The notes below the pieces were generated by a model, which was not told the origin of the DNA, ran no database searches, and saw only the letters and a program-made list of their open reading frames with translations. Shown here one piece after another: positions 6,309 to 21,827 of a stretch of 35,301 nt of DNA (its first letter is position 1; every line of letters begins with the position of its first letter). This stretch comes from Mycobacterium sp. Marseille-P9652 (GTDB taxonomy: Bacteria; Actinomycetota; Actinomycetes; Mycobacteriales; Mycobacteriaceae): contig NZ_CACRUY010000051.1 in NCBI RefSeq assembly GCF_902652685.1, positions 1-35,301 of the forward strand, in the 5' to 3' direction. A program made the translations under genes and the position numbers.

Positions 6309-6322
6309 TGTAACATGTTCTA
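6309..6322 (+). promoter_or_regulatory. KstR operator (perfect match), kshB side
   Basis: TGTAACATGTTCTA fits the KstR consensus TNNAACNNGTTNNA exactly. It lies 24 bases upstream of the TTG start chosen for kshB, so bound repressor would cover the promoter or transcription start of that gene. Confidence 0.85.
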
Positions 6323-6346: not shown

Positions 6347-7429
6347 TTGACCGAAGCGATCCCCGACGAGCCACTCGGCGACCACGTCCTGGAACTGCAA
6401 ATCGCCGAGGTGGTCGCCGAGACGGACGACGCCCGGTCGCTGGTGTTCGCCGTGCCCGACGCTCAGGGCGATCCGGCGATTCCGCCCGAGCGGCTGCGCT
6501 ATGCGCCCGGCCAGTTCCTCACCCTGCGCATCCCCAGTGAGCGCACCGGGTCCGTGGCCCGCTGCTACTCGTTGTGCAGCTCGCCCTTCACCGACGACGC
6601 GCTAACCGTCACGGTCAAGCGCACCGCGGACGGCTACGCGTCGAACTGGCTGTGCGACCACGCACACAAGGGGATGCGGATTCACGTGCTGGCGCCGTCG
6701 GGCACCTTCGTGCCCAAGACCCTCGACGGCGACTTCCTGCTCCTGGCGGCCGGCAGCGGGATCACCCCGATCATGTCGATCTGCAAGTCGGCGCTCGCCG
6801 AGGGCAGCGGCCACGTCGTGCTGGTCTACGCCAACCGCGACGACCGTTCGGTCATCTTCGCCGACGCGCTGCGCGAGCTGACGGCCAAGTATCCGGATCG
6901 ACTCACCGTCGTGCACTGGCTGGAGTCGTTGCAGGGACTGCCGAGCGCCGCCGCGCTGGCCAGGCTGGCGGCCCCATTCGTCGACAGGCCCGTCTACATC
7001 TGCGGGCCCGGGCCCTTCATGGACGCCGCCCGCCAGGCGCTGGACGGGCTGAATGTGCCTGCGGCCCAAGTGCATATCGAGGTCTTCAAATCGCTGGAGT
7101 CCGATCCCTTCGCGGCGGTGACGATCGAGGACACCGCCGAGGGCGACCAGCCGCCGGCCACCGTCGTCGTCGAACTGGACGGTGAAACCCACACCGTGTC
7201 GTGGCCCCGCAGCGCCAAGCTGCTCGACGTGCTGTTGGCCAAAGGCCTGGACGCGCCCTTCTCCTGCCGGGAGGGCCACTGCGGCGCGTGCGCGTGCACC
7301 CTGCGCAAGGGCAAGGTCAACATGGAGGTCAACGACGTCCTGGAGCAACAAGACCTCGACGAAGGTTTGATATTGGCCTGTCAATCTCACCCGGAATCTG
7401 ATTCGGTAGAAGTCACCTACGACGAGTAG
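6347..7429 (+). CDS. kshB: 3-ketosteroid 9alpha-hydroxylase reductase KshB
   Basis: KshB moves electrons from NADH through FAD and a plant-type [2Fe-2S] cluster to the Rieske oxygenase KshA, which hydroxylates C9 and triggers ring B opening. Domains in order are the FAD domain (RCYS at residues 72-75), the NAD domain (AAGSGITP at 135-142; CGPGPFM at 219-225) and a C-terminal ferredoxin with cluster ligands Cys307, Cys312, Cys315 and Cys345. I chose the TTG at 6347 because GAGGGAGG lies 8 bases upstream and the resulting N-terminus (MTEAIPDEP) is the one I remember for M. tuberculosis. An in-frame GTG at 6326 would start 3 bases after the KstR operator with no ribosome binding site. kshA is not in the window. 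Confidence 0.94.
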   Translation: MTEAIPDEPLGDHVLELQIAEVVAETDDARSLVFAVPDAQGDPAIPPERLRYAPGQFLTLRIPSERTGSVARCYSLCSSPFTDDALTVTVKRTADGYASNWLCDHAHKGMRIHVLAPSGTFVPKTLDGDFLLLAAGSGITPIMSICKSALAEGSGHVVLVYANRDDRSVIFADALRELTAKYPDRLTVVHWLESLQGLPSAAALARLAAPFVDRPVYICGPGPFMDAARQALDGLNVPAAQVHIEVFKSLESDPFAAVTIEDTAEGDQPPATVVVELDGETHTVSWPRSAKLLDVLLAKGLDAPFSCREGHCGACACTLRKGKVNMEVNDVLEQQDLDEGLILACQSHPESDSVEVTYDE

Positions 7430-7458
7430 TCGCGTAGCGAACCGGGAAGGGGAGCACG

Positions 7459-7992
7459 ATGAGGCGGCTGACAACTGGTCTTGCGGTGGTCGCGGGTGCG
7501 CTCGCGCTGCTCTGGGCCCCGGTCTCGTCGGCGGCGAGCAACACCGCCACCACCCTGTTCCCGCTGGACGGCCCCAACCAGCTGGAAACGCACGTCACCC
7601 TCGATTGCTTCAAGAACGGCGGCTTCTGCAACTTCACCGCCGGCGCCGACATGCGCACGCCGGACGGCGTGACCGGATTCCCCAACGACCTCTGGGCCCG
7701 GCAGACGACGGAGATCCGGTCGACGAACCGGATGGCTTACCTGGACGTGCACTCCAGCGGTCAGAACGAGCGCGTCAACAAGGCGATGGGCAACGACGAG
7801 GTCACGACCATCTACTTCGGCGGCGGCCCGCCGGACAAATACCAGACGAGCGGCCGCATCGACTCGACCGACTGGGGCACCGGCCAGCCCAAGACCGACA
7901 TCAACGTCATCACCTGCACCCACATCCAGGTGGTCTACAGCGGGGTCAACATCACCTCGCCCAGCACCTGCGCGCAGGCCGACTTTTCCTAG
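7459..7992 (+). CDS. Secreted protein, Rv3572-like, function unknown
   Basis: This 177-residue protein has a clear Sec signal peptide (MRR, then a hydrophobic core, cleavage probably after VSSAAS at about residue 26). The mature part contains four cysteines (LDC, GFCNF, ITCTH, STCAQ), which could form two disulfides outside the membrane, and is rich in Thr, Asn and Gly. It begins 29 bases after kshB with GGGAAGGGGAG just upstream, so it is probably co-transcribed with kshB under KstR. The equivalent gene occupies the same place after kshB in M. tuberculosis (Rv3572). No catalytic motif is visible and its role is not known to me. Confidence 0.88.
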   Translation: MRRLTTGLAVVAGALALLWAPVSSAASNTATTLFPLDGPNQLETHVTLDCFKNGGFCNFTAGADMRTPDGVTGFPNDLWARQTTEIRSTNRMAYLDVHSSGQNERVNKAMGNDEVTTIYFGGGPPDKYQTSGRIDSTDWGTGQPKTDINVITCTHIQVVYSGVNITSPSTCAQADFS

Positions 7993-8043
7993 CGCGCGGT
8001 GACGCCGGGCGTTCGCGCCGGATTCGAGCGTTTATCAACGGCT

Positions 8044-8122
8044 TTGAGTGTGAACCGTGGGCGGGAATATCGAGGGAAACGCGACCGCGGCTTCACACCC
8101 GACGCCACGAGTACACACTCAA
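8044..8122. terminator. Nested inverted repeat between convergent transcripts
   Basis: TTGAGTGT (8044-8051) pairs with ACACTCAA (8115-8122), and inside it GTGTGAA (8048-8054) pairs with TTCACAC (8092-8098), giving alternative hairpins. The element lies between the Rv3572-like gene and the end of the ABC permease gene. It probably serves as a two-way terminator, and its form suggests a dispersed intergenic element. Confidence 0.5.
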
Positions 8123-8141
8123 TGGGATTGCCGGCGCCGGG

Positions 8142-8999
8142 TCAGCGCGTCTCCGACCACCGGAACACCCGGAGCGAGGCGATCAACCCACCGACCGTCC
8201 ACGCCGCCAGCACGAGGAAGGTTCGCCAGTGTTCCCAGCTGCCGGCCGGCTCGAAGGCGGCCATCTCCGGCGGTAACAGCACCGACCGGAATCCCTGCGC
8301 CATCCACTTGACGGGGAACAACGAACCCAGAGTCAGCATCCACGCCGGCAAGGCGACGAGCGGCACGTAGGTCCCCGATACGAACTGCAGCGCGACCGCC
8401 GGCCCGTTGGTGATGACGGCGGCCGAGACCGCGTTGCTCGCCAGGTTGCTGACGAAGATCCCCAGCAATGAACAACTGACGATGCCGAGGATGAAGACCC
8501 ACGTCAGCGTGAACCAATCGAAAACGTCCCTCGGCAAATGGAGTTTGAAGACGGTCACCCCCACCGCCAACAGGACGACGGCCTCGGCGAGACTCGCGAC
8601 GGCGACCAGAACGATCTTCCCGAAGAAGTACGAGGTGGCGGTCGTCGGCGTCCCACGGAGTCGCCGCAGGGCGCCGGTGTCGCGGTCGGCCGCGATGCTG
8701 ATCCCCAGGTTGATGAACGACGTCGACAGGATTCCGTAGGCGAGGATGCTCGCCGCGATCACGGCCCCGGTGCTGGTATCGCTGTTGGGCAGCTTGGCCG
8801 TGAAGATCGAACCGAGCAAGATGCCGATCACCGCCGGCATCGAAAACGTCAGCACCACCTGTTCCGGCCGGCGGTAGAACATCTTCAACTCGGGGACGAC
8901 GCGCGACAGGCCGATGCGGAGCGGGGTGGGGAGCGGCGACGCCGGCTCGGCCTCGCGGTGCCGGGCCGGCGAGGACGTCCGCAGGTGGCTGACGTCCAT
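8142..8999 (-). CDS. ABC-2 type exporter permease (DrrB-like)
   Basis: The 285-residue protein has about 40 polar N-terminal residues and six predicted membrane segments, the layout of DrrB-type ABC-2 permeases that export lipids, polyketides or drugs. Conserved-looking features are the amphipathic stretch before the first helix (VVPELKMFYRRPEQV) and the cytoplasmic loop DRDTGALRRLRGTP after the second, which normally contacts the ATPase. Its ATG shares one base with the ATPase stop codon (TGATG), so the two are translated as a pair. With the polyketide synthase directly upstream, the likely cargo is the product of that enzyme; that is inference. It is the last gene of the operon, and a hairpin follows. 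Confidence 0.88.
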   Translation of the reverse strand: MDVSHLRTSSPARHREAEPASPLPTPLRIGLSRVVPELKMFYRRPEQVVLTFSMPAVIGILLGSIFTAKLPNSDTSTGAVIAASILAYGILSTSFINLGISIAADRDTGALRRLRGTPTTATSYFFGKIVLVAVASLAEAVVLLAVGVTVFKLHLPRDVFDWFTLTWVFILGIVSCSLLGIFVSNLASNAVSAAVITNGPAVALQFVSGTYVPLVALPAWMLTLGSLFPVKWMAQGFRSVLLPPEMAAFEPAGSWEHWRTFLVLAAWTVGGLIASLRVFRWSETR

Positions 9000-9847
9000 C
9001 ACGCCTGCCCGATCAGCTGCAGGTAGGCGTCTTCGAGCGTCGGCCGGGAGACGGTGAGCTGCGCCAGTTCCGCGCCGTCCTTCGCCCGCTGCCTGATCAG
9101 TTCGGTCGGGTGGTCCGTCGTCTCGACGTGCACCTCGTCTCCCTCCATCCAGCGGACCGTCGCGGCCGAATCCACGTACCCGATCAGCCTCGCCGGCGAG
9201 TCGACCGCCACCACCCTGCCGTCGGCCAGCACCGCGACCCGATCCGCCAGGGCGGCGGCTTCCTCGAGGTAGTGGGTCGTCAGGAGGATGGTCGTGCCGT
9301 CGGCGGCCAGCACCGTGATGAGGTCCCAGAATTTCCGTCTGGCGTCCGGATCGAATCCGGTTGTCGGTTCGTCCAGGAACAGCAGCTCCGGCATGCCCAC
9401 GATGCCGAGCGCGACGTCGAGCCGGCGACGCTGCCCCCCGGACAGCGCCCTGACTTTCGAGTCGGACGCGGAGGTCAGCCCGACCAGGCCGAGCACGTCT
9501 TCGGGATCGCGGGCCCTGCCATAGGACTTGGCCAACATGCGCACCGTCTCCGACACGGTGAGCATCCCCGAGTCGCTGACCTCCTGCAGCACGATGCCGA
9601 TCCTGGCGCGCCAGTTGCGGCCCGCGGTTCCGGGGTCCTCGTCCAACACCCGCACGCGTCCGGAGTCGCGCTTGCGATGTCCCTCCAGGATTTCGATGGT
9701 GGTCGACTTGCCCGCACCGTTGGGCCCGAGGATCGCGAAGATCTCGCCGTAGCCGACGTCGAGGTCCAGATCGCGCACGGCCTGCCGCTGCCCGTAGGCC
9801 TTCGACAGCCCCCGCACCCACACCGCGGACGACCGATCGTGCGTCAT
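8999..9847 (-). CDS. ABC exporter ATPase (DrrA-like)
   Basis: This 282-residue cytoplasmic ATPase powers the permease encoded next. It has a Walker A motif (GPNGAGKST, residues 41-49), Q-loop Gln88, the ABC signature LSGGQ (135-139), Walker B ending in Asp159-Glu160, and the switch His192 (TTHY). The C-terminal TLEDAYLQL resembles the tail of DrrA-type drug and lipid exporters. The start at 9847 is chosen because its ATG overlaps the polyketide synthase stop codon by four bases (ATGA), so exporter production is tied to synthase translation. The frame continues upstream only as an antiparallel shadow of the synthase gene. Confidence 0.92.
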   Translation of the reverse strand: MTHDRSSAVWVRGLSKAYGQRQAVRDLDLDVGYGEIFAILGPNGAGKSTTIEILEGHRKRDSGRVRVLDEDPGTAGRNWRARIGIVLQEVSDSGMLTVSETVRMLAKSYGRARDPEDVLGLVGLTSASDSKVRALSGGQRRRLDVALGIVGMPELLFLDEPTTGFDPDARRKFWDLITVLAADGTTILLTTHYLEEAAALADRVAVLADGRVVAVDSPARLIGYVDSAATVRWMEGDEVHVETTDHPTELIRQRAKDGAELAQLTVSRPTLEDAYLQLIGQA

Positions 9848-12800
9848 CCCCTGTCCCGATCCGTTACCTCGAGTTCCGCCAGCATCTTTCGCAGGTCGGC
9901 ATCGGACAGCTGTTCGATCATGCGGTCGACGTCGTCGGCGACTGGCGGTTCGGGCCGATCGTCGTCGATCGGTGGCGCGTCGGCGCCGTCCAGATGCAGA
10001 TCGGCGAGTATCCGAACCGCCAGCGAGTTGACGCTGACGCCCTTCAGCAGCTCCAGCACCGGCAGGTCGACGCCGAACAGCGCGCTGATCCTGGCCCGGA
10101 AATCCATGGCCATCATCGAGTCCAGGCCTAGGTCGTCGAGGGCGTCGTCGGGTCCGATGTCGGTGACGGCGAAATCGAAGACCGCGGAGACGACCTGGCG
10201 GACCTGGCGCGCGACCGCGCCGAGCCTGTCGGCTTCCGGGCACGCCGAAAGCAGTTCCAGCATGGACGATTCCGGGTCGCCGCTCCCCGTCACGCGTTCG
10301 GCCGCGCCCAGATCGGAGAACATCCGCGGCGCCTGACCGCCGAGCCCATGGCGAACCCGGGTCCAGTCGGCGGTCAGCGCGACAACCGCGGCCACCTTCT
10401 GGTTGATGAGCCGATCGAGGATCTGGGTGCCCGCCGCCGGCGTGATGAGCTCGATCCCTCGCTGCGCGTATGTGCTTTCCAGCTCCAGCTTTTCGACCAT
10501 GCCGACGGACCACGGGCCCCACCCGATGGTGAGCGCTGGCAGCCCCTGAGCGCGGCGATAGTGGGCGAACGCGTCGAGGCACGCGTTGGCGGCGGCGTAG
10601 TTCCCCTGCCCGGGTGAGGCGATGACAGAACCGGCGGAACCGAACATGACGAAGAATTCGAGTTCATGCCCCGCCAGCGCGTCGTGCAGGACGCGGGTGC
10701 CGCGCATCTTGGGCGCCAGCACCCGGGCGAAGTCGGATTCGGTCATGTTCACCAGGAGCTGGTCGTGGACGACGCCCGCGGCGTGCAGGATGCCGCGGAC
10801 CGGTGGCGCCCCGTCGCGAATGTGCTTGCTCAACCAGGCATTCACCGCGTCGATGTCGGTGATGTCGACGCTGGCCGTGGTGACCCGGGCGCCGAGGCGT
10901 TCGGCCTTGCGAATTGCCGCGATGGTGGCGTGCCGCGGATCGTCGTCGCCGATCTGCTCCCAGGTGCTCCTCGGCGGGACCTCGGTGCGGCACAGCAAGG
11001 TGATGTGCCGGGCGCCGCGTTCGGCGAGGTATGTCGTGACGACGCGACCCAACGCGCCGGCGCCGCCGGTCACCGCGTACGTGGCGTCGGGCGTCAATTT
11101 GGTGGGAAAGGCCTTGGTGAGACTGCTGCTCGGCCGAAGACGCGGCACCAACGCCGCCCCGCCGCGGATGGCGAGCTGATCATCGGGATCGTCGGCGAGG
11201 ACGTGTTGGCAGACGCGCTCGGCGCTCTCGCCATGGTCGTCGGCCCGGTCGATGTCGACGAGCCCGCCCCAATGTTTCGTGAACTCCTGGTGGCCGATCA
11301 CCCGACCGAGCCCCCAGACTGCCGATTGCCCGACGGCGAGTGCGTCGCCCGCACGCGCCGGCTGCGCATTGGCGGTGATCAGGTAGAGACGCGGCTGGAC
11401 GTTGTCGTGGTCCGCCAGGGCCTTGACGAGGTGCACGACCGCGAAAAGGCCGGATTGGCAATCACTCTCACCGGCCTCGTCAGGAATGTCCAGGGGCCGG
11501 CAGTCGATGATCCCGTCGAGGTTGCCCTCCGCGTCGACGTGCGCTTCGAGCAGTTGGTGTAGCTGCTCGGGCCGCCGCGCGTCGAGCGCGTAGCCTCCGT
11601 CGCGTCGCGTGAGCGCGCCGACGGGCTCATGCACGACCGTGTGCACGCGTTGACCGCGACGGCGCATCCGCTGCGCGAGCTCCGCGCCGAATCCTCCTGA
11701 GTCCGCGAGGATCAGCCACACCGACGCGTCTGTCCGCGTCGGGCTTTCGGGCTCGTCGAGCTGCGCGTCGCCATGCGCGACCCAGTGCAGCTCGAGGATC
11801 CCCTTGTCCACGCGTTCGGGCGACATGCGCGACGAGGCGCTCAGCGATTGCACGGTGAAGCCGTCGAAAACCGCGAGTGGCGCACCGGTTTCTCCGGTGA
11901 TGACGATGTCGCTCTCCATCGAGTCTTCGCTCGCCGATACGACCCTGACGTGGACCGTCATGTCCGGTTCGGGCGGGCCGAAGATGGCGCTGCGCCCGAC
12001 CCGAACGGGCAGGAAAGGGCTCTCGCTGCCGTCCGATCCGAAAAGCGGTGTGCCGAGCAGAGTCTGGAATGCGCCGTCGATGAGGGCCGGATGGAATCGG
12101 TACGCGCCGAGTTCGGCGCCGACCGGTGCGGGGACGGTGAGTCGCGCCGTCGCCCAGCCCTCGCCGGCGATGACCCCGGTGACGGTCTGAAACGCCGTGC
12201 CGTAGGCCAATCCGGCGGCATGCGTGCGCGCGTAGAACTCGTCTCCGTCGATCGTGGTGACCTGTCCCTCGCCGGCGGGGACCTGGCCGCGCCTCGGCGG
12301 CTGGGTGTTGAGCTCGGCCGTCGCCGTGATCACCCACTTGAGGTCACCGCCGGCCGTCGCGGTCAACGCGGTGAATTCCAGCGTCGCGGTGTCCTGGTTG
12401 AGCGTGGTCCTCAGGACGGGGTCGCAGGTGTCGTCGAGGATGAGGGCGCGGTGCAGAGTCAGGTTGTCGACGCTGTGCTCCGCCGATCCATAGGTCTCTT
12501 TCGCGGCGGCCAAACCCATTTCGATGTACACCGCCCCCGGCACGAGGACGCTTCCCTGCACCCTATGGTCCGCGAGGAAGGGTATGCGCGCGGTGCTCAA
12601 CTCGATTTCCCAGGTCGGGTGCACGGCGCTCACGGGCTGCCCGAGCAACGGATGAACCGGGTTGTAGTGCAGCTCCTCGACGGCCTCCGGCGGCTCATTC
12701 CAGTACCGCTTGGATTGCCACGGGTAGGACGGCAGCTTCAGCAAGCGGGCCCCGTGCCGGGGATAGAGCGCTTCCCAGTCGAGCGGCCGGCCGTGACAGT

Positions 12801-15366
12801 GCAGCGCGCCGACACAGTCCATCAGCGTCCGACCGTCGTCCTGGTGGCGTCGCTGGGTCGCCAGGACGACCACGTCCGTGCCGTGCGACGCGGCAGCCTC
12901 GACGATCGACGTCGCGAGGGCGGGATGCGGTCCCAATTCGACGAAGTGGGTGTACCCCTCGTCGAGCATCCGGCGGATCGCGGGCTCGAAAAGCACCGTC
13001 GCGCGGGTGTTCTGCCACCAGTAGGCGGCGCCGGCGGCGTAGGAGTCCAACCGCTCGCCGGTGACGGTGGAGTACAGCGGGACCGTCGCCGCGGCGGAGG
13101 ACAGCCCGTTCAACGAGGCGTAGAGGTCGTCCTTGACGGCGTCCATGTAATGGGTGTGATACGGCACCTTGACGTTGAGGAACCGGTTGAAGACGCCGCG
13201 CTCGTCCAGTTGGCCTGCGATGTCCTCGAGCACATCGCCGTCGCCCGCGATGGTCGTGGCGGCGGGGCCGTTGACCGCGGCGATCGACACGCCCCGCCCG
13301 ACGTGAACTCGCGTCGCGTCGTCGAGGGCATCGAAGAGCGATTCGGCGTCGAGGCCGACCGCCAGCATGCGGCCCTGCCCGCTCACGCGTTGTTGGAGGC
13401 GGCTTCGGTGATAGATCACCCGGATCGCCTGCTCGAAGGTGAGCACTCCGGCCAGATAGTGGGCGGCGACCTCACCGGCGCTGTGACCGACCACGGCGTC
13501 GGGGTGCACCCCGAACCGTCCGAGTTGCTCGGCCAGTGCTATCTGGATGGCGAAGTTGGCGGGCTGAGCGAATTCGGTTTCGGCCATGCGGGAACGGGTT
13601 TCGTCGGCCGTGAGTTCATCGAGCAGGGACCAGTCGGCGTAGCGGGACAGCTCGCGATCGCTTCGCGCGATGCTGTCGGTGAAAGCCGGAAAGGCATCGA
13701 GCAGGTCGCGGCACATCCCCCACCACTGGGGGCCCATCCCGGTGCAGACGAACGCCAACTTCGCGGCGCCCGCGGGTGTGCGGCCCGCGGCGCTCCGCCC
13801 GCCCTCGGCGAACGCCCGCAACTGATCTCGTGCCTCGGTCACGCTGCCCGCGACCACGGCATGACGGTAGCTCAGGTGCGAGCGGCGGCGGCTGAGGGTG
13901 TATCCGAGATCACCGACCGTGACGTCGGGATGCGCGTCGAGGTGCGCGGCGAGCCGTTCGGCCGTCGCGGCCAGCGCGTCCTCGGAACGAGCCGAGATCG
14001 GCAACACGGCCAACGGAACGGGCGCAACGGGTTTCGCGGCGGGAACGTCGGGCGCGGCGGGGGGCTCGGCCAGCACGACGTGGGCGTTGGTGCCGCCGAA
14101 GCCGAACGAGTTGACCCCCGCGATCCGCCGTTCGGCGGCGGGGAACGGGCGGCCGGTCCGGGGAATCTCGATGCCCATGTCGTCGAGTGCCATTCGCCGG
14201 TTCGGCGTCTTGAGGTGGAGATTCGCCGGAATGTAGCCATGCTTGACGACCAGCGACGCCTTGATCAGTCCGGCCACGCCGGCGCCGGCCTCGAGATGGC
14301 CGATGTTGGTCTTGACCGATCCGATGAGCAGGGGACTGTCCGACGGGCGTTCTACCGCAAGGGCTTCGGCGAGGGCCTGCACCTCGATGGGATCGCCCAC
14401 GGGCGTTCCGGTGCCGTGCGCCTCGACGTAGCCGACCTCGGCGGGGCGAACGCCCGCCCGGCGCAGGGCGGCGGTGATCGCGGCCCGTTGCGCCTCGGCG
14501 CTGGGTACGGTGATGCCGTCGGTGTGACCGTCCTGGGACACCGCCGTCCCGAGGATCTGTGCATAGACGTCGTCGCCGTCGCGCAGCGCACGCCCGAGGG
14601 GTTTGATGACGACGACCGCGCCCCCCTCTCCGCGCGCGTACCCGTCGGCCGAATCGTCGAACGCCTTGCTGCGCCCCTCGGGGCTCAGGAACCCACTCTT
14701 CGACTCCGCGATCGCGGTGTTGGGCCCGATCATGATGTTGACCCCGCCGGCGAGCGCGAGGTCGCATTCGCCGTTCCAGATGCTCAGCGCCGCAAGGTGA
14801 ACCGCGACGAGCGAGCTCGAGCAGGCCGTGTCGATCGTCATGCTCGGGCCGCGGAAGTCGAAGGCGAACGAGATGCGGTTCGCCAGCATGGTCATCATCA
14901 TCCCGGTGGAGGAATGGGTCTTGAACCGGTACCGACTGGTGCGGCCCCGGTTCTGCAGCAGTTGGTAGTCCAGGGTGAACCCGCCTACGAACACGCCCAC
15001 GTCGGCGCCGGCCAGGCCGTCCGCCGGTATTCCCCCGTCTTCCAGGGCCTCCCAGGTGGTCTGCAGCATGAGGCGTTGCTGCGGATCGAGGAGGTTCGCC
15101 TCCCGGGGGGAGATCCCGAAGAACTGGGGGTCGAACTGGTCGACTTCGCCGAGGAACCCGCCTCGCCGGGTGACCATCTTGCCGATCTTCCCCGGATTGG
15201 GGTCGTAGTAGGAGTCCGCGTTCCAGCGCGTCTCGGGTACCGGACAGGTGGCGTCAATGCCACCGCGCAGCAGGTCCCAGTAGCCATCCGGATCGTGGAC
15301 ACCTCCGGGCAGATGACAACCGATCCCGACGATCGCCAGGGGCTCGCGGGCGCCATGGTCGGACAT
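9844..15366 (-). CDS. Type I polyketide synthase, single module KS-AT-DH-KR-ACP
   Basis: Domains, numbered from the ATG at 15366 (1840 residues): ketosynthase about 8-435 with Cys182 (DTACSSS), His317 and His357; acyltransferase about 535-840 with Ser629 (GHSAG) and the specificity-region motif YHTH (736-739); dehydratase about 900-1175 with His934 (HxxxGxxxxP) and Asp1097; a structural pseudo-KR; active ketoreductase about 1425-1680 with GGAGALG and Tyr1590; acyl carrier protein with Ser1750 (LGLDS); and a helical tail (MIEQLSDADLRKMLAELE). All catalytic residues seem intact. There is no enoylreductase or thioesterase. This order and size are those of iterative aromatic synthases such as 6-methylsalicylate synthase, but a one-module modular enzyme is equally possible. 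The start at 15366 has GAGG 6 bases upstream; the ATG at 15372 abuts that site directly. Confidence 0.95.
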   Translation of the reverse strand: MSDHGAREPLAIVGIGCHLPGGVHDPDGYWDLLRGGIDATCPVPETRWNADSYYDPNPGKIGKMVTRRGGFLGEVDQFDPQFFGISPREANLLDPQQRLMLQTTWEALEDGGIPADGLAGADVGVFVGGFTLDYQLLQNRGRTSRYRFKTHSSTGMMMTMLANRISFAFDFRGPSMTIDTACSSSLVAVHLAALSIWNGECDLALAGGVNIMIGPNTAIAESKSGFLSPEGRSKAFDDSADGYARGEGGAVVVIKPLGRALRDGDDVYAQILGTAVSQDGHTDGITVPSAEAQRAAITAALRRAGVRPAEVGYVEAHGTGTPVGDPIEVQALAEALAVERPSDSPLLIGSVKTNIGHLEAGAGVAGLIKASLVVKHGYIPANLHLKTPNRRMALDDMGIEIPRTGRPFPAAERRIAGVNSFGFGGTNAHVVLAEPPAAPDVPAAKPVAPVPLAVLPISARSEDALAATAERLAAHLDAHPDVTVGDLGYTLSRRRSHLSYRHAVVAGSVTEARDQLRAFAEGGRSAAGRTPAGAAKLAFVCTGMGPQWWGMCRDLLDAFPAFTDSIARSDRELSRYADWSLLDELTADETRSRMAETEFAQPANFAIQIALAEQLGRFGVHPDAVVGHSAGEVAAHYLAGVLTFEQAIRVIYHRSRLQQRVSGQGRMLAVGLDAESLFDALDDATRVHVGRGVSIAAVNGPAATTIAGDGDVLEDIAGQLDERGVFNRFLNVKVPYHTHYMDAVKDDLYASLNGLSSAAATVPLYSTVTGERLDSYAAGAAYWWQNTRATVLFEPAIRRMLDEGYTHFVELGPHPALATSIVEAAASHGTDVVVLATQRRHQDDGRTLMDCVGALHCHGRPLDWEALYPRHGARLLKLPSYPWQSKRYWNEPPEAVEELHYNPVHPLLGQPVSAVHPTWEIELSTARIPFLADHRVQGSVLVPGAVYIEMGLAAAKETYGSAEHSVDNLTLHRALILDDTCDPVLRTTLNQDTATLEFTALTATAGGDLKWVITATAELNTQPPRRGQVPAGEGQVTTIDGDEFYARTHAAGLAYGTAFQTVTGVIAGEGWATARLTVPAPVGAELGAYRFHPALIDGAFQTLLGTPLFGSDGSESPFLPVRVGRSAIFGPPEPDMTVHVRVVSASEDSMESDIVITGETGAPLAVFDGFTVQSLSASSRMSPERVDKGILELHWVAHGDAQLDEPESPTRTDASVWLILADSGGFGAELAQRMRRRGQRVHTVVHEPVGALTRRDGGYALDARRPEQLHQLLEAHVDAEGNLDGIIDCRPLDIPDEAGESDCQSGLFAVVHLVKALADHDNVQPRLYLITANAQPARAGDALAVGQSAVWGLGRVIGHQEFTKHWGGLVDIDRADDHGESAERVCQHVLADDPDDQLAIRGGAALVPRLRPSSSLTKAFPTKLTPDATYAVTGGAGALGRVVTTYLAERGARHITLLCRTEVPPRSTWEQIGDDDPRHATIAAIRKAERLGARVTTASVDITDIDAVNAWLSKHIRDGAPPVRGILHAAGVVHDQLLVNMTESDFARVLAPKMRGTRVLHDALAGHELEFFVMFGSAGSVIASPGQGNYAAANACLDAFAHYRRAQGLPALTIGWGPWSVGMVEKLELESTYAQRGIELITPAAGTQILDRLINQKVAAVVALTADWTRVRHGLGGQAPRMFSDLGAAERVTGSGDPESSMLELLSACPEADRLGAVARQVRQVVSAVFDFAVTDIGPDDALDDLGLDSMMAMDFRARISALFGVDLPVLELLKGVSVNSLAVRILADLHLDGADAPPIDDDRPEPPVADDVDRMIEQLSDADLRKMLAELEVTDRDRG

Positions 15367-15415
15367 GTTCATCCTCTGGGCTCGAAACGGGTCACGATGC
15401 GGGAGAGCGGGCGCG

Positions 15416-17182
15416 TCAACGGAATTCGAGCGCCGGTGCCGGTGTGCAGATCCAGTCGCGGCTGATCGGATTGGTTGCCTGCTCGCGCCGGTAGACGGAG
15501 CGGAGTTCTTGCACGAACGGGTCGCGCTGCCAGGCCTGCACCTGGCGGATGACGTCGTCGTCGTCGAAGCGACCGCCCTTGTCCGACACCACGGTCTCCA
15601 TCAGCTGGCCGGCCAGCTGGCGCAGTAGCAGAGCGTTCGCGTCGAATCGCGCCAGGAATTCCGGAGCCTGCCCCATCATCGCCGTGTGCAGGGTCACCAT
15701 GAAGTTCAGGGGAGAGTACAGGTCGACGAATTGCGCCGAGGGACGCGCGTCCTCGACGGCGGCCCACTCCCGGAAGAACCGCTGCATGCGGTTACTGAGC
15801 TTGATGAGCCCTTCCAGGTGTGGCACCACCTGCGGGTCGTCGGCGACGCTCACGAACCGGCCGTTCGCATAGAGGAAACCCACGAAGCCCCAATAGAAGG
15901 CGATATCCCAGATCACCTTTGCCGACATCACCGCCGGCGACCCCATCAGCGGGTATTGGTCGCAGTACACGGCAAGCCACATGTCGGTGAGCGAGCGAAA
16001 CAGGGAGTCGCTGATCGCCGATCGGGCGACGACGTCCTCGCCGTCGAGGTCGCGGGCGATCATGTCGGTGATGAGGCCGTTGCCGATCGCCACGAGGTCC
16101 AGCCCCGACGAGTACAGGGGATCCAGGAACACCCCTGAATCGCCGGTGAGACACCAACGTTCGCGGCCGTCGTAGACCTTCGTCGCGCCGTGGCTGTAAT
16201 TCTTCATGACCCGGAAGTCCCTGATGAGGTGCTCGTTGTCCGCGAGGACCGCGGCGCACTGCGGCTCGTGCTCGCTGAGCCAGGAGCGCGCTTTGGCCAG
16301 CGTGTTGTACCGGTCGAAGGGGTGGACGGCCGGGTCGGCCACGATCCCGACGCTCGTGGACCCGGACGCGAGCCGGATCAGCCACACCCAATACCCTTCG
16401 CCCATCAGATGATTGGTCGACAGCGCGCGGTCCCCCTCGATGAGCCGCGACTGCCACTGCGTGTCCTCGCTCCAGGTGCCGATGTCGATTTCCATCGCGA
16501 TGCGCAGCCACACCGCATTGCAGTTGTGTTCGTTGGCGCGCCTGAGGCCCAATTGCCTTGACAGCGTGCGGTTTCGGCCCGACGCGTCGACCACCCATCG
16601 CGTGGTCGTGCGTGCGACGGTCTCGCCGGTTTGGTAGGCAACCGTGCTCGCGCGTCCCGCCGGGCCGAATTCGACGGACACCACCCGGCCGGAGACGATG
16701 TCGACGCCCTCGGCGACGCAACGCCGGTGCAGCTCGTTCTCCAACCTGCCGCGGTCGATCTGGTAGGTCACCTGCGGCACGAAAGCGGAGCTTCCGAGTT
16801 CCACCCGTTGAGCGATGTCGGTGTTCTGATCGTGCGAGAAGAACATTCGCAGACCCATCTTGCGAATCTGCGAGGTCTGCAGATGGTCGCCCAGGCCGAG
16901 ACGGTCGCGCAGGTAGTGGGCGGAGACCTCGACCGTGGACTCGCCGACCGTGTGGGTGACCTCGGGCACCGGGTACGAGCGCGGCGAGACGACCAGCACG
17001 CGCGTCTGCGGCCGCGCGCCGCGGATCTCCAGAGCGAGGGTCAAGCCCGCCGCGCCGCCCCCGACGATCGTGACATCGTGGTCGGGCGTTGCCGCGTCGG
17101 CGTCGAGCAGGCCCCTGATCCTGTCCGCCAGGACCCGGCGCTCCTCCGAGCTCAAGTGCGACAGCTGTGCTCGCGCGTCCAC
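15416..17182 (-). CDS. FAD-dependent halogenase-like oxidoreductase
   Basis: This 588-residue protein belongs to the flavin halogenase / monooxygenase superfamily. Residues 38-46 form the FAD-binding GGGAAG region, and GESTVEV (80-86) matches the GES/GEA segment of halogenases. Lys108 in the IRKMG segment sits where carrier-protein-type halogenases keep their catalytic lysine. FLDPLYSSG (352-360) fits the halogenase Fx.Px.Sx.G motif. The usual WxWxIP motif appears as WVWLIR (265-270), with Arg for Pro. The first 27 residues contain LSSEERRVLADRI, a short helix like those found on assembly-line modules and partner enzymes. The start is GTG with GGGAGG 9 bases upstream. It directly precedes the polyketide synthase, so it probably halogenates, or otherwise oxidises, the polyketide chain or product. 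Hydroxylase activity is the main alternative. Confidence 0.82.
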   Translation of the reverse strand: MDARAQLSHLSSEERRVLADRIRGLLDADAATPDHDVTIVGGGAAGLTLALEIRGARPQTRVLVVSPRSYPVPEVTHTVGESTVEVSAHYLRDRLGLGDHLQTSQIRKMGLRMFFSHDQNTDIAQRVELGSSAFVPQVTYQIDRGRLENELHRRCVAEGVDIVSGRVVSVEFGPAGRASTVAYQTGETVARTTTRWVVDASGRNRTLSRQLGLRRANEHNCNAVWLRIAMEIDIGTWSEDTQWQSRLIEGDRALSTNHLMGEGYWVWLIRLASGSTSVGIVADPAVHPFDRYNTLAKARSWLSEHEPQCAAVLADNEHLIRDFRVMKNYSHGATKVYDGRERWCLTGDSGVFLDPLYSSGLDLVAIGNGLITDMIARDLDGEDVVARSAISDSLFRSLTDMWLAVYCDQYPLMGSPAVMSAKVIWDIAFYWGFVGFLYANGRFVSVADDPQVVPHLEGLIKLSNRMQRFFREWAAVEDARPSAQFVDLYSPLNFMVTLHTAMMGQAPEFLARFDANALLLRQLAGQLMETVVSDKGGRFDDDDVIRQVQAWQRDPFVQELRSVYRREQATNPISRDWICTPAPALEFR

Positions 17183-17213
17183 AGGTCCCCACCTCCCGAA
17201 TGCAGTCGCTTCA

Positions 17214-17233
17214 GTTATTTAATATTTAATAAC
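17214..17233 (-). promoter_or_regulatory. AT-rich near-palindrome at the halogenase-PKS promoter
   Basis: GTTATTTAATATTTAATAAC is a 20-bp inverted repeat with 9 of 10 base pairs symmetric and only two G/C bases, in a window that is otherwise strongly GC-rich. It lies 32-51 bases upstream of the halogenase GTG, where a promoter or operator for the operon is expected. A dimeric repressor or an AT-binding nucleoid protein such as Lsr2 could bind it. No regulator gene is adjacent. Confidence 0.65.
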
Positions 17234-17386
17234 CTACACCAATGTGGCAGTCTGGCAAGCGGAGAAGAACACCTCACCGCGATCGCCGTCGACCGGCGGT
17301 TTTGCGTCGAAATACCCTGCTGCGGAGCGTCTTCCGCGAACTTTGCAATCTTGTATCGCGCGCCAACGAACGGCTCCGCCGAATGC

Positions 17387-18676
17387 TCAGCGAACAAATT
17401 CTGTGGAAGCGTCATTGATCTTCTTTGCCGAGTATGGCTGGTCTTTGGGACGGTGCCGGCCGTAGACGAATTCGAATATCGGCGTTGCCATGAGGGTGGT
17501 GACGATGGCCACCAGCACCAGGATGCTGAAGAGGGTAGGCGTGATGATGCCGGCCTGCAGTCCGATGTTCAGGAGAATGAGTTCGATCAGGCCGCGGGCG
17601 TTCATCAGCGACCCGAGTGCAAGGGATTCGCGCAGCGGCACCTTTCTCAGCCGCGCGGCGAGGGTGCACGCCACTCCCTTTCCCGCGATCGACACGACGA
17701 GGATTCCCGCGGTCACCGCCCACAGCGCCGGGCTGTTGAGCAGGCCGATCTGGGTGTTGAGCCCCGAGTAGACGAAGAACAGGGGCAGCAGGAACGTGGT
17801 GACCAGAGGCTCGAGAAGCGCGGTGAGTTTCTCCGCGAAAAAGCCCGACGGCATGGCGACACCGAGGATGAAAGCACCGAATATCGCGTAGATCCCGATG
17901 GTGTCCGTGAACCAGGCGCACATCATCAGGGCAATGAGCACGACGCTCAGCACTTCGGGGGTGATCGCGTTGTGACGCTCGGTCCTCGGACCCAGCCCGG
18001 CGAGAGCCTTTCGCCCAATCGTCAACAGCAGGACGGTATAGAGAATCCCACCGATTATCGCCGTCGCCGCCGTGGCCGGGCTGCCGCGGTGGATCGCGAG
18101 GACGATCGCCAGAATGCACCACGACAGCGCGTCGTCGGTCGCACCACAGATCAGGGCCAGGGTGCCCAAAGACGTTCCGGAGAGTCGTTGTTCGAAAATT
18201 ATCCGGGCGAGCATCGGAAAAGCGGTCGTGGCGATCGACGCGCCCAGGAACATCATGGCCAGCGGCAGCGAAACGCCGTTTTCGAAATACCTTCCCGCTT
18301 TCAGCATCGGCATCGCGATCAGCGCCCCGAGGGCGAGCGGGGCGACGATGCCCGCGGCCGACACCGCCACCGCGGTGCCGGCGCGGTGCCTGATGAGGTT
18401 GGCGTCGAAGTTCAGCCCGATCAGGAACATGTAGAGCACCAGCCCGATCTGCGCGGCCGTGTACAGCACAGTGTTCGCCTGTCCCGGCGGAAACAGCTGA
18501 TGCTGAATGCCCGGTGCCACCCGGCCCAGCAATGACGGCCCCAGCAGCACCCCAGCGATCATCTCGCCGACAACCTGCGGCTGCCCGAGGCGTTGGGCCA
18601 GGAGGCCGACGAGGCGACAGGTTGCCAGGATGACGGCCAATTCGAGGAAGAAATGCACGGCTGTGGTTGCGGGCAT
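17387..18676 (-). CDS. CPA2-type cation/proton antiporter
   Basis: This 429-residue integral membrane protein has 12-13 hydrophobic segments of the Kef/NapA (CPA2) fold. Features include an N-terminal repeat (GEMIAGVLLGPSLLG), the unwound-helix region GASIATTAFPML, and the ion-binding pair Asp181-Asp182 (GATDDALSW). An Asp-Asp pair is typical of electrogenic Na+/H+ exchangers. No C-terminal RCK/TrkA-N domain is present, so it is not a complete Kef channel. It lies upstream of the halogenase gene on the same strand with 204 bases between, so it may have its own promoter and be only loosely tied to the cluster. Antiporters of this type occur in some polyketide clusters, where self-protection or ion balance is suspected. 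Confidence 0.88.
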   Translation of the reverse strand: MPATTAVHFFLELAVILATCRLVGLLAQRLGQPQVVGEMIAGVLLGPSLLGRVAPGIQHQLFPPGQANTVLYTAAQIGLVLYMFLIGLNFDANLIRHRAGTAVAVSAAGIVAPLALGALIAMPMLKAGRYFENGVSLPLAMMFLGASIATTAFPMLARIIFEQRLSGTSLGTLALICGATDDALSWCILAIVLAIHRGSPATAATAIIGGILYTVLLLTIGRKALAGLGPRTERHNAITPEVLSVVLIALMMCAWFTDTIGIYAIFGAFILGVAMPSGFFAEKLTALLEPLVTTFLLPLFFVYSGLNTQIGLLNSPALWAVTAGILVVSIAGKGVACTLAARLRKVPLRESLALGSLMNARGLIELILLNIGLQAGIITPTLFSILVLVAIVTTLMATPIFEFVYGRHRPKDQPYSAKKINDASTEFVR

Positions 18677-18840
18677 CAGTCAGGTCCTCGAGGTTCGGCG
18701 TACGGTCACCACCGCCGTTGGTGGGGTTCGCTCGTGATTCGTTGCCGCGGCGGGCGCGGATTGGATGACGATGATGTCGTCGTGATCGACGGCCGCGGCG
18801 CGACCACGCCGGCAACCACGGCGCGGAGGATTACCCGCGG

Positions 18841-20946
18841 CTAGCGCGGCAGACCGAGCAGCCGTTCGGCGGCGACCGTGAGCAGGATCTGCTCGGTGCC
18901 GCCGGCGATCGTGAGGCAGCGGGTGTTGAGGAAGTCGAACACCGCCTGGTTGTGCACCAGGCCGGCGTCCTCGGCGACGTCCATCGTGAACTCGGCCAGG
19001 GCCTGCCTGTAGCGGACGCCGATCAGCTTGCGAACGCTGGACTGTGCCCCGGGGTCCTGCCCGCCGACGGCTAGCTGGGCGATCCGCTGGTCGAGCAGCG
19101 CGCCCGTCTGCGCGATGCAGATCAGCCGGCCGAGCCGGTCCTGCTGGGCGGCGTCGAGATCCAGCTCGGCGAGCACCCTGAGCAGCTCCTCCATCGGGTT
19201 GCCCAGCGCGGTGCCGCTGGCCATCGCGATCCGCTCGTTGGCCAGTGTCGTGCGCGCCAGCCGCCAGCCGTCGTTCACCGCGCCCACCACCATGTCGTCG
19301 GGGACGAACACGTTGTCCAGGAAGACCTCGTTGAACAGCGAGTCGCCGGTGATCTCGCGCAGCGGGCGGATCTCGAGGCCCGGCGATTTCATGTCGACCA
19401 GGAAGTACGTGATGCCCTTGTGCTTCGGGGCGTCGGGGTCGGTGCGCGCCAGGCATACCCCCCACCGCGCCTTGTGCGCCGCCGACGTCCACACCTTCTG
19501 CCCCGTCAACAGCCAGCCGCCGTCACCGCGCACCGCCTTGGTGCGCAGCGACGCCAGGTCGGAGCCGGCCCCGGGCTCGGAAAACAGTTGGCACCAGAGG
19601 AACTCGCCGCGCATGGTGGCCGGCACGAAGCGCTCGACCTGCTCCGGCGTCCCATGCTCGAGGATCGTCGGCGCCGCCCACCAGCCGATCACCAGGTCGG
19701 GACGCACGACGCCCGCCGCCGCCATCTCCTCGTCGATCAGCAGCTGCTCAGCTGGGGACGCCCCCCGGCCGTAGGGCGCCGGCCAGTGCGGCGCCTGCAG
19801 CCCCGCCTCCGCCAGGGCCGCCTGCCGTTGGTCCTCGGGCAGCGCGGCGATCTCGGCGATCACCGCCGCCAGTTCGGGGCGCAGGTCCTCGACTTCCGAG
19901 AGGTCGATGCCCAGGCGGCGGCGGACCCCGGACTGGGTGAGCGCGGTGACGCGGCGCAGCCAGCTTTCGGCGCCGCCGAGGAACGCGCCGATGGCGTGCG
20001 CGCGCCGCAGGTAAAGGTGCGCGTCGTGCTCCCAGGTGCAGCCGATGCCGCCGAGCACCTGGATGCAGTCCCTGACGTTGGCCTTGGCGGCGGCGATGCA
20101 GATGCTGGCGGCCAGCGCCGCCGCGATTGCGAACTGGTCGTGATCGGGATCGTCGGCAGCTCGGGCGGCGTCGGCGGCCGCGACCTCGGCTTGCTCTGCT
20201 CGGCAGAGCATTTCGGCGCAGAGGTGTTTGACGGCCTGGAAACTGCCGATCGGCTTGCCGAACTGCTCGCGCACCTTGGCATAGGCGACGGCCGTGTCCA
20301 GCGACCACCGGGTCACTCCTGCCGCCTCGGCCGCCAGGACGGTCGCGACCAGATCCTCGACCCGCCGTCCGGAGTCGACGCGGGTGGCCGGCGCGGACGT
20401 CAGCGTCACCCGGGCCAGGGGCCGGGAGAAATCGGTCGCCCGCAGCGGCTCGATTTGCACGCCCTCGCCGGCGCTGTCGACCAGCACCCAGCCGCCGCTC
20501 GTCGGCAGCAACAACAGGCCGCCGTCCGCCGCGCCGAGCGCCAACCGCACGGTGCCCGTCGCCGCGCCACCCTCCAAGCGAACGTCCCCACCGAGCGCCA
20601 GGCCCGCGAACCTCTCACCCGAGGCCAGTGCGGCCAGCACGTCGGCGTCGCCGACGACGAGGGTGGCCAGTGCGGTGGTTGCGACCGGTCCCGGCACCAG
20701 CGCCTTGGCGGCCTCCTCGACCATGGCGCAGAGGTCCTCGATGGTGCCACCCGCGCCGCCCGAGTCCTCGGGGATGGCGACCCCGAAGATGCCGAGGTCG
20801 GCGAGGCCGGCGAACACCGGCCGCCAGGCGTCCGCGTCACCCTGCTCGACCGCGCGGATCGCCGCGGTCCCCGGGATGGCGGTGCGCGCCCAGTCGCGCA
20901 CCAGCGCACGCGCGGCAAATTGCTCGTCGGTGACGGTCGCTACCAC
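18841..20946 (-). CDS. fadE34: Acyl-CoA dehydrogenase FadE34, two-domain
   Basis: This is a fused acyl-CoA dehydrogenase of 701 residues with two dehydrogenase-like halves. The N-terminal half (about 1-330) includes REQFGKPIGSFQAVKHLCAEM. The C-terminal half (about 345-701) includes WCQLFSEPGAGSDLASLRTKAV and KVWTSAAHKARWG, with AGGTEQILL near the end. In M. tuberculosis FadE34 (ChsE3) oxidises steroid-CoA side chains, probably the five-carbon side chain, introducing the alpha-beta double bond. The GTG start has GGGGAGGA about 9 bases upstream. It diverges from kstR across a 212-base gap holding a perfect KstR operator, so it is a direct KstR target. Confidence 0.92.
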   Translation of the reverse strand: MVATVTDEQFAARALVRDWARTAIPGTAAIRAVEQGDADAWRPVFAGLADLGIFGVAIPEDSGGAGGTIEDLCAMVEEAAKALVPGPVATTALATLVVGDADVLAALASGERFAGLALGGDVRLEGGAATGTVRLALGAADGGLLLLPTSGGWVLVDSAGEGVQIEPLRATDFSRPLARVTLTSAPATRVDSGRRVEDLVATVLAAEAAGVTRWSLDTAVAYAKVREQFGKPIGSFQAVKHLCAEMLCRAEQAEVAAADAARAADDPDHDQFAIAAALAASICIAAAKANVRDCIQVLGGIGCTWEHDAHLYLRRAHAIGAFLGGAESWLRRVTALTQSGVRRRLGIDLSEVEDLRPELAAVIAEIAALPEDQRQAALAEAGLQAPHWPAPYGRGASPAEQLLIDEEMAAAGVVRPDLVIGWWAAPTILEHGTPEQVERFVPATMRGEFLWCQLFSEPGAGSDLASLRTKAVRGDGGWLLTGQKVWTSAAHKARWGVCLARTDPDAPKHKGITYFLVDMKSPGLEIRPLREITGDSLFNEVFLDNVFVPDDMVVGAVNDGWRLARTTLANERIAMASGTALGNPMEELLRVLAELDLDAAQQDRLGRLICIAQTGALLDQRIAQLAVGGQDPGAQSSVRKLIGVRYRQALAEFTMDVAEDAGLVHNQAVFDFLNTRCLTIAGGTEQILLTVAAERLLGLPR

Positions 20947-21002
20947 CGTTTGGTCCTCCCCGTCGTCGATTCGACGTTCGCTAGAGCTTGTCCTGGGCCG
21001 AC

Positions 21003-21016
21003 TAGAACGTGTTCTA
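21003..21016. promoter_or_regulatory. KstR operator between fadE34 and kstR
   Basis: TAGAACGTGTTCTA fits TNNAACNNGTTNNA perfectly and is symmetric apart from the two central bases. It lies 57 bases upstream of the fadE34 start codon and 142 bases before kstR, so it can control both, including autoregulation of the repressor. Confidence 0.9.
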
Positions 21017-21158
21017 ATAGTGCCAGCGATCGACCGTCAAGTCGAACGCCATCGCAGCAGGACAAAAGGGGGTTGCGGCGGTACGGAGGTGAGAAGTTCC
21101 GACTCAGCATGCGTATCGTTTGCCAACGAACCCTCTTCGAACAGGAGTAAGTCGTCGA

Positions 21159-21827
21159 ATGCCAGCGAACACGAACTCGGGTCGTGTCCCGGACTCGCAG
21201 CCGCGCGAGGTCGTGAACGTGGCGGTGCTCGCCGAGTCCGAACTCGGCTCGGAGGCGCAGCGGGAGCGCCGCAAGCGGATACTCGACGCGACGATGGCGA
21301 TCGCCTCCAAAGGCGGCTACGAGGCCGTCCAGATGCGGGCCGTCGCCGACCGCGCCGACGTGGCCGTGGGCACCCTGTACCGGTACTTCCCCTCGAAGGT
21401 GCACCTGCTGGTGTCGGCGCTGGGCCGCGAATTCGGCCGGATCGACGCCAAGACGGACCGCTCGGCGCTCTCCGGCGGCACACCGTTCCAGCGGCTCAAC
21501 TTCATGATCGGAAAGCTCAACCGCGCGATGCAGCGCAACCCGCTGCTGACCGAGGCGATGACGCGGGCTTACGTCTTCGCCGACGCGTCGGCGGCCAGTG
21601 AGGTCGACCACGTCGAGAAGCTGATCGACAGCATGTTCGCGCGGGCGATGGCCGACGGCGAGCCGACCGAGGACCAGTACCACATCGCACGGGTGATCTC
21701 GGACGTGTGGCTGTCGAACCTGCTGGCGTGGCTCACCCGACGCGCCTCGGCCACCGACGTCAGCAAACGGCTCGACCTGGCCGTGCGGCTGCTGATCGGG
21801 GACCAGGACGGGGCGAAGGCGGGATAG
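21159..21827 (+). CDS. kstR: TetR-family repressor of cholesterol catabolism, KstR
   Basis: KstR represses the cholesterol regulon and is released by a CoA-thioester steroid intermediate. The N-terminal TetR helix-turn-helix spans about residues 38-84 (MRAVADRADVAVGTLYRYFPSK) and the rest is the all-helical ligand-binding and dimer domain. The ATG at 21159 has AGGAG 11 bases upstream and gives 222 residues. An in-frame GTG at 21219 gives the shorter form (MAVLAESELG) that I remember as the annotated M. tuberculosis start; the DNA-binding domain is complete in both. It ends 8 bases from the convergent LacI-type gene. Its operators are found here before kstR/fadE34 and between hsaA and kshB. 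Confidence 0.95.
   Translation: MPANTNSGRVPDSQPREVVNVAVLAESELGSEAQRERRKRILDATMAIASKGGYEAVQMRAVADRADVAVGTLYRYFPSKVHLLVSALGREFGRIDAKTDRSALSGGTPFQRLNFMIGKLNRAMQRNPLLTEAMTRAYVFADASAASEVDHVEKLIDSMFARAMADGEPTEDQYHIARVISDVWLSNLLAWLTRRASATDVSKRLDLAVRLLIGDQDGAKAG

Follow-up and report, generated by a model that had tools for sequence, protein, structure and literature searches.

Organization of the gene block

The window, a stretch of 35,301 nucleotides from Mycobacterium sp. Marseille-P9652 (contig NZ_CACRUY010000051.1) analysed at its full length, carries at 8142-18676 a cassette of five genes. All of them lie on the minus strand and are transcribed in the order antiporter, flavoenzyme, polyketide synthase (PKS), ATPase and permease, as listed here:

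17387-18676, minus strand: CPA2-type cation/proton antiporter, type A (types are described below), 429 amino acids (aa), PF00999 at 195.6 bits
15416-17182, minus strand: halogenase-like flavoenzyme with WxWxIR for WxWxIP, 588 aa, PF04820 at 50.1 bits
9844-15372, minus strand: type I PKS with one module, KS-AT-DH-KR-ACP by Pfam domains, 1842 aa
8999-9847, minus strand: ATP-binding cassette (ABC) ATPase, DrrA-like, PF00005 at 95.8 bits, found in 51 of 51 flank-complete loci (defined below)
8142-8999, minus strand: ABC-2 type permease, DrrB-like, PF01061 at 80.5 bits and PF12698 at 58.3 bits, found in the same 51 of 51 loci

These coordinates and families confirm the five same-strand genes of the original prediction, which had order and strand right; as it also stated, the block 8142-18676 contains no gene for a regulator, a thioesterase or starter activation. 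The permease start was placed at the ATG at 8999, the open reading frame (ORF) 8142-9821 being an overlong frame. Start and stop overlap between PKS and ATPase and again between ATPase and permease, and the gap between flavoenzyme and PKS is 43 bp; because of these overlaps and this gap, the flavoenzyme, PKS, ATPase and permease genes look like one operon. Between the end of the antiporter gene and the flavoenzyme start lie 204 bp. The GC content of the cassette genes is 0.633-0.691, with the minimum in the antiporter, compared with 0.663-0.726 in the measured neighbours, which is a weak sign. An Rfam search of the window gave no match.

Conservation of the cassette in mycobacteria

The flavoenzyme was searched in 198 genomes of the genus Mycobacterium, the genome of the window among them. 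Of these genomes, 77 gave a match at E ≤1e-3, including 56 with strong orthologues (the window's included) that are, the window's own aside, 66-83% identical, some of them divided over contigs. Cassette carriers make up 56 of the 198 sampled genomes, about a quarter. M. neoaurum ATCC 25795 (locus L066) is an environmental example of a carrier. Loci were named for the best 80 of 118 relatives, so the lack of a named species among them proves nothing; 65 were counted as mycobacterial, and 51 of these 65 have enough flank on both sides (flank-complete loci).

Linkage over the 51 flank-complete loci was counted by tblastn. In 51 of 51 the flavoenzyme is accompanied by the PKS, the ATPase, the permease and a single antiporter, with the PKS at most 500 bp from the flavoenzyme in every case. 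When gene families were compared locus by locus, the cassette families were found in 45 to 74 loci and any other family in at most nine. Such conservation across loci and genomes makes the block more than a chance arrangement. The cassette is a conserved unit, and its genomic address varies. The claim of a compact, co-inherited set for synthesis, tailoring and export therefore holds, the set being intact in 51/51 loci; the five genes are not routinely separated, since each of these loci keeps them together. Literature searches returned, among the matches listed, no description of the cassette or of its mycobacterial product, in line with the original prediction, whose author knew of no such described product.

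One locus counted among the mycobacterial ones, L034, comes from a metagenome-assembled genome labelled Ilumatobacteraceae. Its contig carries the cassette with a flavoenzyme 73% identical, and is perhaps misbinned. Automatic ORF choice lost the flavoenzymes of some loci (e.g. L032, L042, L054, L061, L069) and the antiporters of others (e.g. L062, L067), so that the motif table, antiporter identities and tree described below rest on the retained rows.

Exchange of the antiporter

Among the 51 flank-complete loci, 30 have a type A antiporter, as in the window, and 21 have type B, which is positioned downstream of the permease; none has both and none has neither. The two types are about 44% identical in mycobacteria, and mycobacterial type B averages 72-76% identity to the antiporters of clusters from Rhodococcus, Lentzea, Pseudonocardiaceae and genome G446. 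Antiporter matches of at least 71% identity (type A) were found in 37 of the 198 genomes and matches of 46-48% (B-like) in 19. These 56 antiporter-positive genomes are the same 56 that have the flavoenzyme, and an antiporter at ≥46% identity occurs in 0 of the 142 flavoenzyme-negative genomes, where all five weaker matches (37-40%) are found. On the flavoenzyme tree, made by a quick method with support by the Shimodaira-Hasegawa-like approximate likelihood ratio test (SH-aLRT) only, the A/B label requires four changes among mycobacterial rows and five over all rows, with three changes forced by starred branches.

The strict co-occurrence and the several A/B changes make the antiporter look required but replaceable. 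That a distant homologue has taken its place several times while the linkage persisted is the strongest evidence of this analysis that ion/proton exchange belongs to the working of the cassette. Beyond the observed co-occurrence, the antiporter probably protects the producer via cytoplasmic pH or cation balance. A DD motif is present in the antiporter variants listed, of both types. The PF00999 score of 195.6 bits is above the cut-off of 26.2, and the antiporter scores 134 bits against the CPA2 subfamily TIGR00932, under the curated cut-off of 238.3, so "CPA2-type" is used by resemblance only.

Flavoenzyme: halogenase or oxygenase

The flavoenzyme has the flavin-binding motif GxGxxG (GGGAAG at 41-46). 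Its catalytic lysine, K108, aligns with a lysine of 3nix and of CmlS and is invariant in a 48-row alignment; in the motif table of 87 rows, where one L088 gene was entered twice, it is present in 86, the remaining row being truncated. A tunnel motif resembling FxxPxxSxG is also present (FLDPLYSSG at 352-360); this form is our interpretation of the notation in an excerpt of PMC8407142, and 3nix has the motif too. The WxWxIP motif is absent and reads WVWLIRL. At its last position R is found in 64 of the 87 rows and P in 23, R being the residue in 57 of 58 mycobacterial rows and in 7 others.

It is plausible, if somewhat short of probable, that the flavoenzyme is a true halogenase in which WxWxIR is a tolerated variant, and that the product is a halogenated polyketide. 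The nearly universal catalytic lysine argues for this, as does the likeness of FLDPLYSSG to FVDPIFSSG of PltA and ChlB4. In a profile search against the PDB, the aliphatic halogenase CmlS (106.1 bits) and PltA (105.7 bits) came out on top, nearly tied. The predicted structure (predicted local distance difference test score, pLDDT, 89.5) agrees with a halogenase fold when compared with known structures, halogenases being 17 of the first 18 matches. CmlS (3i3l), which heads the profile search, is absent from the 50 rows of the fold comparison, and this absence does not speak against it. WxWxIP is missing from some halogenases, e.g. Bmp5, according to the same excerpt of PMC8407142. The change from P to R points the other way, as WxWxIP is proposed in an excerpt of PMC10696468 to favour halogenation over hydroxylation, and the best match of a single-sequence PDB search, 3nix, is not named as a halogenase.

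The near fixation of R is instead what would be expected of a halogenase-derived oxygenase or dehydrogenase acting by hydroxylation, epoxidation or desaturation of the chain, and weak matches to QhpG, a flavin monooxygenase, are consistent with it. This too is quite possible, although we would not call it probable: the features shared with halogenases speak for the former assignment, and the excerpt of PMC10696468 calls it unclear what the residues of WxWxIP do for halogenation as opposed to oxygenation. WxWxIR in place of WxWxIP makes halogenation uncertain, and a halogenated product is possible by family resemblance. The original prediction of an exported, possibly halogenated small polyketide thus stands in its compact synthesis-tailoring-export set and is weakened in its halogenation.

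In several of the tandem paralogues with P, the F of FxxPxxSxG is missing. L090 9764 has P yet groups in the tree with the first flavoenzymes found in other actinobacteria, and two rows with R, L083 9920 and L084 9908, group with the other paralogues (support 84); R is therefore not confined to one clade. The sole mycobacterial row with WxWxIP is L030 9986-11749, and Nocardia L090 9764-11791, in the same tree region, likewise has it, which may be a reversion or a retained state. A pathway that holds WxWxIR and WxWxIP flavoenzymes side by side is well suited to asking what the WxWxIP residues do.

Polyketide synthase

Pfam assigns the PKS a single module in the order KS-AT-DH-KR-ACP and finds no ER or TE domain in it. 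The motifs of the KS Cys, both KS His, the AT Ser and the KR Ser are kept in 66 of 66 aligned PKSs, and both the window PKS and the variants listed have intact DH, KR Tyr/Asn and ACP motifs. With KR and DH motifs intact and no ER, the PKS is expected to carry out ketoreduction and dehydration but no enoyl reduction. In the AT the motif is VPYHTH, with an aromatic residue as in the malonyl-type HAFH; by the rule that relates this motif to malonyl specificity, the AT is of the malonyl kind. The PKS scores under every NCBIfam equivalog cut-off among the matches listed. Its identity to other long PKS matches (>800 residues) of the same genome is 35-41%, so it is no recent copy of them. One module and no linked PKS suggest that it is probably used iteratively.

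Many mycobacterial PKSs make envelope lipids, one of which is exported by DrrABC, and mycocerosic acid synthase is the closest solved PKS by sequence. It is nevertheless unlikely that the cassette makes a cell-envelope lipid component and not a diffusible molecule: the PKS is without an ER domain, no additional gene family (the families being unannotated) is common to more than nine loci, and relatives occur in Chloroflexota, which do not have that envelope.

Relatives outside mycobacteria

Larger homologous clusters were found in Rhodococcus sp. ARC_M5 (L074, the same sequence as L122), Pseudonocardiaceae YIM PH 21723 (L079), Lentzea (L088), Herpetosiphon (L083), Ktedonobacterales (L084) and the genomes G446 and G363. 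In the five clusters with locus numbers the best flavoenzyme is 49-64% identical to the mycobacterial one and the PKS, where the locus reaches it, 46-61%; L074, L079 and L088 have a type B antiporter, as some mycobacterial cassettes do. Unlike the mycobacterial cassette, the larger clusters have two or three flavoenzymes and, where reached, a thioesterase gene before the PKS (the L074 protein belongs to PF00975, and BLAST shows the other proteins to be homologous to it). The actinobacterial ones also have DUF1702 proteins, with a ferredoxin, SCP2 and several regulators in subsets. The mycobacterial ABC pair has no match in the fetched stretches of these larger relatives. The simplest account of these comparisons is that mycobacteria would retain a reduced version in which the PKS is joined by a single flavoenzyme, a single antiporter and the mycobacteria's own ABC pair.

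Enediyne PKSs have KR before DH according to an excerpt of PMC7692728, on enediyne-type clusters among others. An enediyne PKS cluster was ruled out, since KR does not precede DH here and DUF1702 is found in 0 of the 198 genus genomes, against 3 of 3 control genomes from elsewhere. A search of DUF1702 against the PDB gave a best E of 0.16. Tandem DUF1702 genes (L119 2467-6366 and L079 1-3575; four in G446 and, among those tested, at least three in L079) adjoin flavoenzyme-thioesterase-PKS clusters of non-enediyne type.

The plasmid collection held two distant flavoenzyme matches, in Janthinobacterium and Gloeothece. The Janthinobacterium lividum plasmid (L124 10859-26477) carries a phosphopantetheinyl transferase, an antiporter, a flavoenzyme 37% identical, an Asp/Asn hydroxylase domain protein, an alpha/beta hydrolase and a 2616-aa PKS; around the Gloeothece match no PKS was found within the stretch read.

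Chromosomal setting and control region

The cassette is flanked by genes that we take to be Rv3572 and fadE34, which are neighbours in M. tuberculosis, and a promoter-like region, absent from the original prediction, precedes the flavoenzyme gene:

7459-7992, plus strand: Rv3572-like gene, left flank outside the cassette; adjoins fadE34 in 13 of 30 loci; no match in Pfam
18841-20946, minus strand: fadE34-like acyl-CoA dehydrogenase gene, right flank outside the cassette; PF00441, PF02771, PF02770
17214-17258, minus strand: promoter-like region before the flavoenzyme, with TTGCCA, 16 nucleotides, TAGGTT, then TTAAATATTAA

At E ≤1e-200 the fadE34-like gene is matched in 91 of 98 genomes of the genus. 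In the best 30 fadE34 loci, fadE34 and Rv3572 are direct neighbours in 13 (gap ≤306 bp) and about 1 kb apart in five; the cassette separates them in two, the window and G058, and in ten no Rv3572 or kshB match was found within the 1.5 kb fetched. The space between the two genes (window 7992-18841; also L127, L128, L138, L140, L146) may be a site of recurrent insertion. A 617-aa Kelch-repeat protein is encoded at 103-1956, at the window's left end.

Using a consensus that we take to be that of KstR, exact motifs were found at 6309-6322 (before kshB) and 21003-21016 (before fadE34/kstR), and sites with at most one mismatch number 12 against 2.5 expected. It is very improbable that the cassette is functionally part of, or co-regulated with, cholesterol catabolism: its place between kshB/Rv3572 and fadE34/kstR, these motifs and the lack of a terminator-like site between fadE34 and the downstream antiporter gene, which share a strand, would fit such a link, but only 2 of the 51 flank-complete loci share the setting (L021, Mycobacterium sp. 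E787, and L022, M. bohemicum), and the cassette has no exact KstR-like motif, its three one-mismatch sites (8875, 12653, 13178) all lying in coding sequence. On these grounds, differing neighbours and no exact motif, a cholesterol-linked function was rejected. The meaning that had been attached to the location does not hold up; the cholesterol locus is an incidental setting.

In the promoter-like region, TTAAATATTAA (17219-17229) sits within the near-palindrome GTTATTAAATATTAAATAAC (17214-17233), whose 9 pairs of 10 were reached by 1 of 500 mononucleotide shuffles. An AT-rich box occurs in 13 of 53 rows (some not cut at the flavoenzyme start), and these 13 with L080 make 14 loci; the composite promoter pattern is present in the window and 11 of the 14, a count that is no frequency because the loci were picked for the box. 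TTAA-3-TTAA lies just downstream of the TANNNT element in 15 of 15 aligned sequences (window, L021-L027, L029, L030, L033, L044, L048, L070, L080) and was not seen in most others scanned; palindromes of 9-10 pairs are also found upstream in L028, L039, L046 and L067. A generic promoter scan of 7400-21200 gave no site, which counts against the promoter-like region. The inverted repeat, if real, suggests a trans-acting repressor.

A similar inverted repeat, with 12-base arms, was seen elsewhere in the window's own genome (G000), on contig C26 at 25340-25360 (L159 2839-2863). An ORF about 120 bp downstream of it resembles, by eye, an MmpL transporter, and beside this lies an ORF resembling, again by eye, a methyltransferase dependent on S-adenosylmethionine.

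Proposed pathway and its significance

The reading that we consider probable is that of a self-contained, portable cassette for an exported reduced polyketide, oxidised or halogenated, with self-protection based on the antiporter. In this pathway the single-module PKS would extend with malonyl units, followed by KR reduction and DH dehydration, to give an ACP-bound enoyl or polyene-type chain, probably through iterative use. The flavoenzyme, dependent on flavin adenine dinucleotide (FAD) and fed reduced flavin by a host reductase, would then oxidise or halogenate the chain, which a thioesterase acting in trans may release or which may be handed on to an acceptor. The DrrAB-like ABC pair would, judging from its family, export the product, and the CPA2 antiporter would shield the producer by adjusting cytoplasmic pH or cations.

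Several observations weigh against this pathway. No thioesterase or starter enzyme is linked to the cassette in mycobacteria, and three thioesterase-like matches elsewhere in the window's own genome have 29-33% identity. The antiporter co-occurrence is partly due to common ancestry of the whole cassette, which does not explain the exchanges; type B-like antiporters in the 198 genomes were recognised by their 46-48% identity band to type A; and the fetched stretches of Chloroflexota L083 and L084, both ending inside the PKS, contain no antiporter. The carrier G090 has a stop within the flavoenzyme frame, and WxWxIR speaks against a standard halogenase.

More tentatively, and with the odds against it, the cassette could be a reduced, mobile form of a multi-phylum polyketide pathway in which the WxWxIR enzyme, derived from a halogenase, performs a non-halogenating oxidation of the PKS chain and which persists only with a dedicated cation/proton antiporter, itself repeatedly replaced by a distant homologue. 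If true, this would mean antiporter-dependent self-protection beside efflux and an undescribed class of mycobacterial metabolite. For the portable cassette as such, the 56 carriers among 198 genomes, the intact PKS motifs, the strict linkage and the lack of a product in the literature searches suggest that a mycobacterial metabolite has been overlooked. The antiporter's exact co-occurrence with the flavoenzyme offers a directly testable case of ion-exchange self-protection beside efflux.

Comparison with known systems

Like DrrAB exporters, the ABC genes form an ABC-2 pair of two genes that match the same families, and NCBIfam puts them closest to drrA and drrB. They differ in scoring below the NCBIfam cut-offs, the ATPase with 228.5 bits for drrA (TIGR01188, cut-off 312) and the permease with 50.9 bits for drrB (TIGR01247, cut-off 223). 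Likeness of the antiporter to KefB/KefC and other CPA2 antiporters consists of PF00999 and weak KefB/KefC scores (about 50 bits versus 752-804 required). Unlike KefB/KefC, it is a 429-aa membrane domain with a DD motif and no KTN domain, and Kef-type glutathione gating was ruled out for this reason. CPA antiporters are reported in an excerpt of PMC7349511 to promote electrophile detoxification, which KefB/C do by acidifying the cytoplasm; because the cassette antiporters have no KTN domain, only the general idea is transferable from KefB/C.

The flavoenzyme shares its fold, a GxGxxG-type motif, the catalytic lysine and the FxxPxxSxG-like region with CmlS (chloramphenicol), PltA, ChlB4 and CndH, and is similar in length to CmlS (588 and 591 aa). 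Unlike these flavin-dependent halogenases it has WxWxIR, with 14-23% identity in fold alignments, and it scores 72.6 for CmlS in NCBIfam against a cut-off of 900. Neocarzilin-type clusters reportedly contain a type I PKS, a thioesterase and an FADH2 halogenase. Likened by this description only, their PKS, halogenase-like enzyme and separate thioesterase resemble the larger non-mycobacterial relatives, unlike the mycobacterial cassette with its one PKS module and no thioesterase. Set beside these systems, the cassette is a new arrangement of known kinds of parts, in which both the exchangeability of the antiporter and the WxWxIR motif of the flavoenzyme are uncommon.

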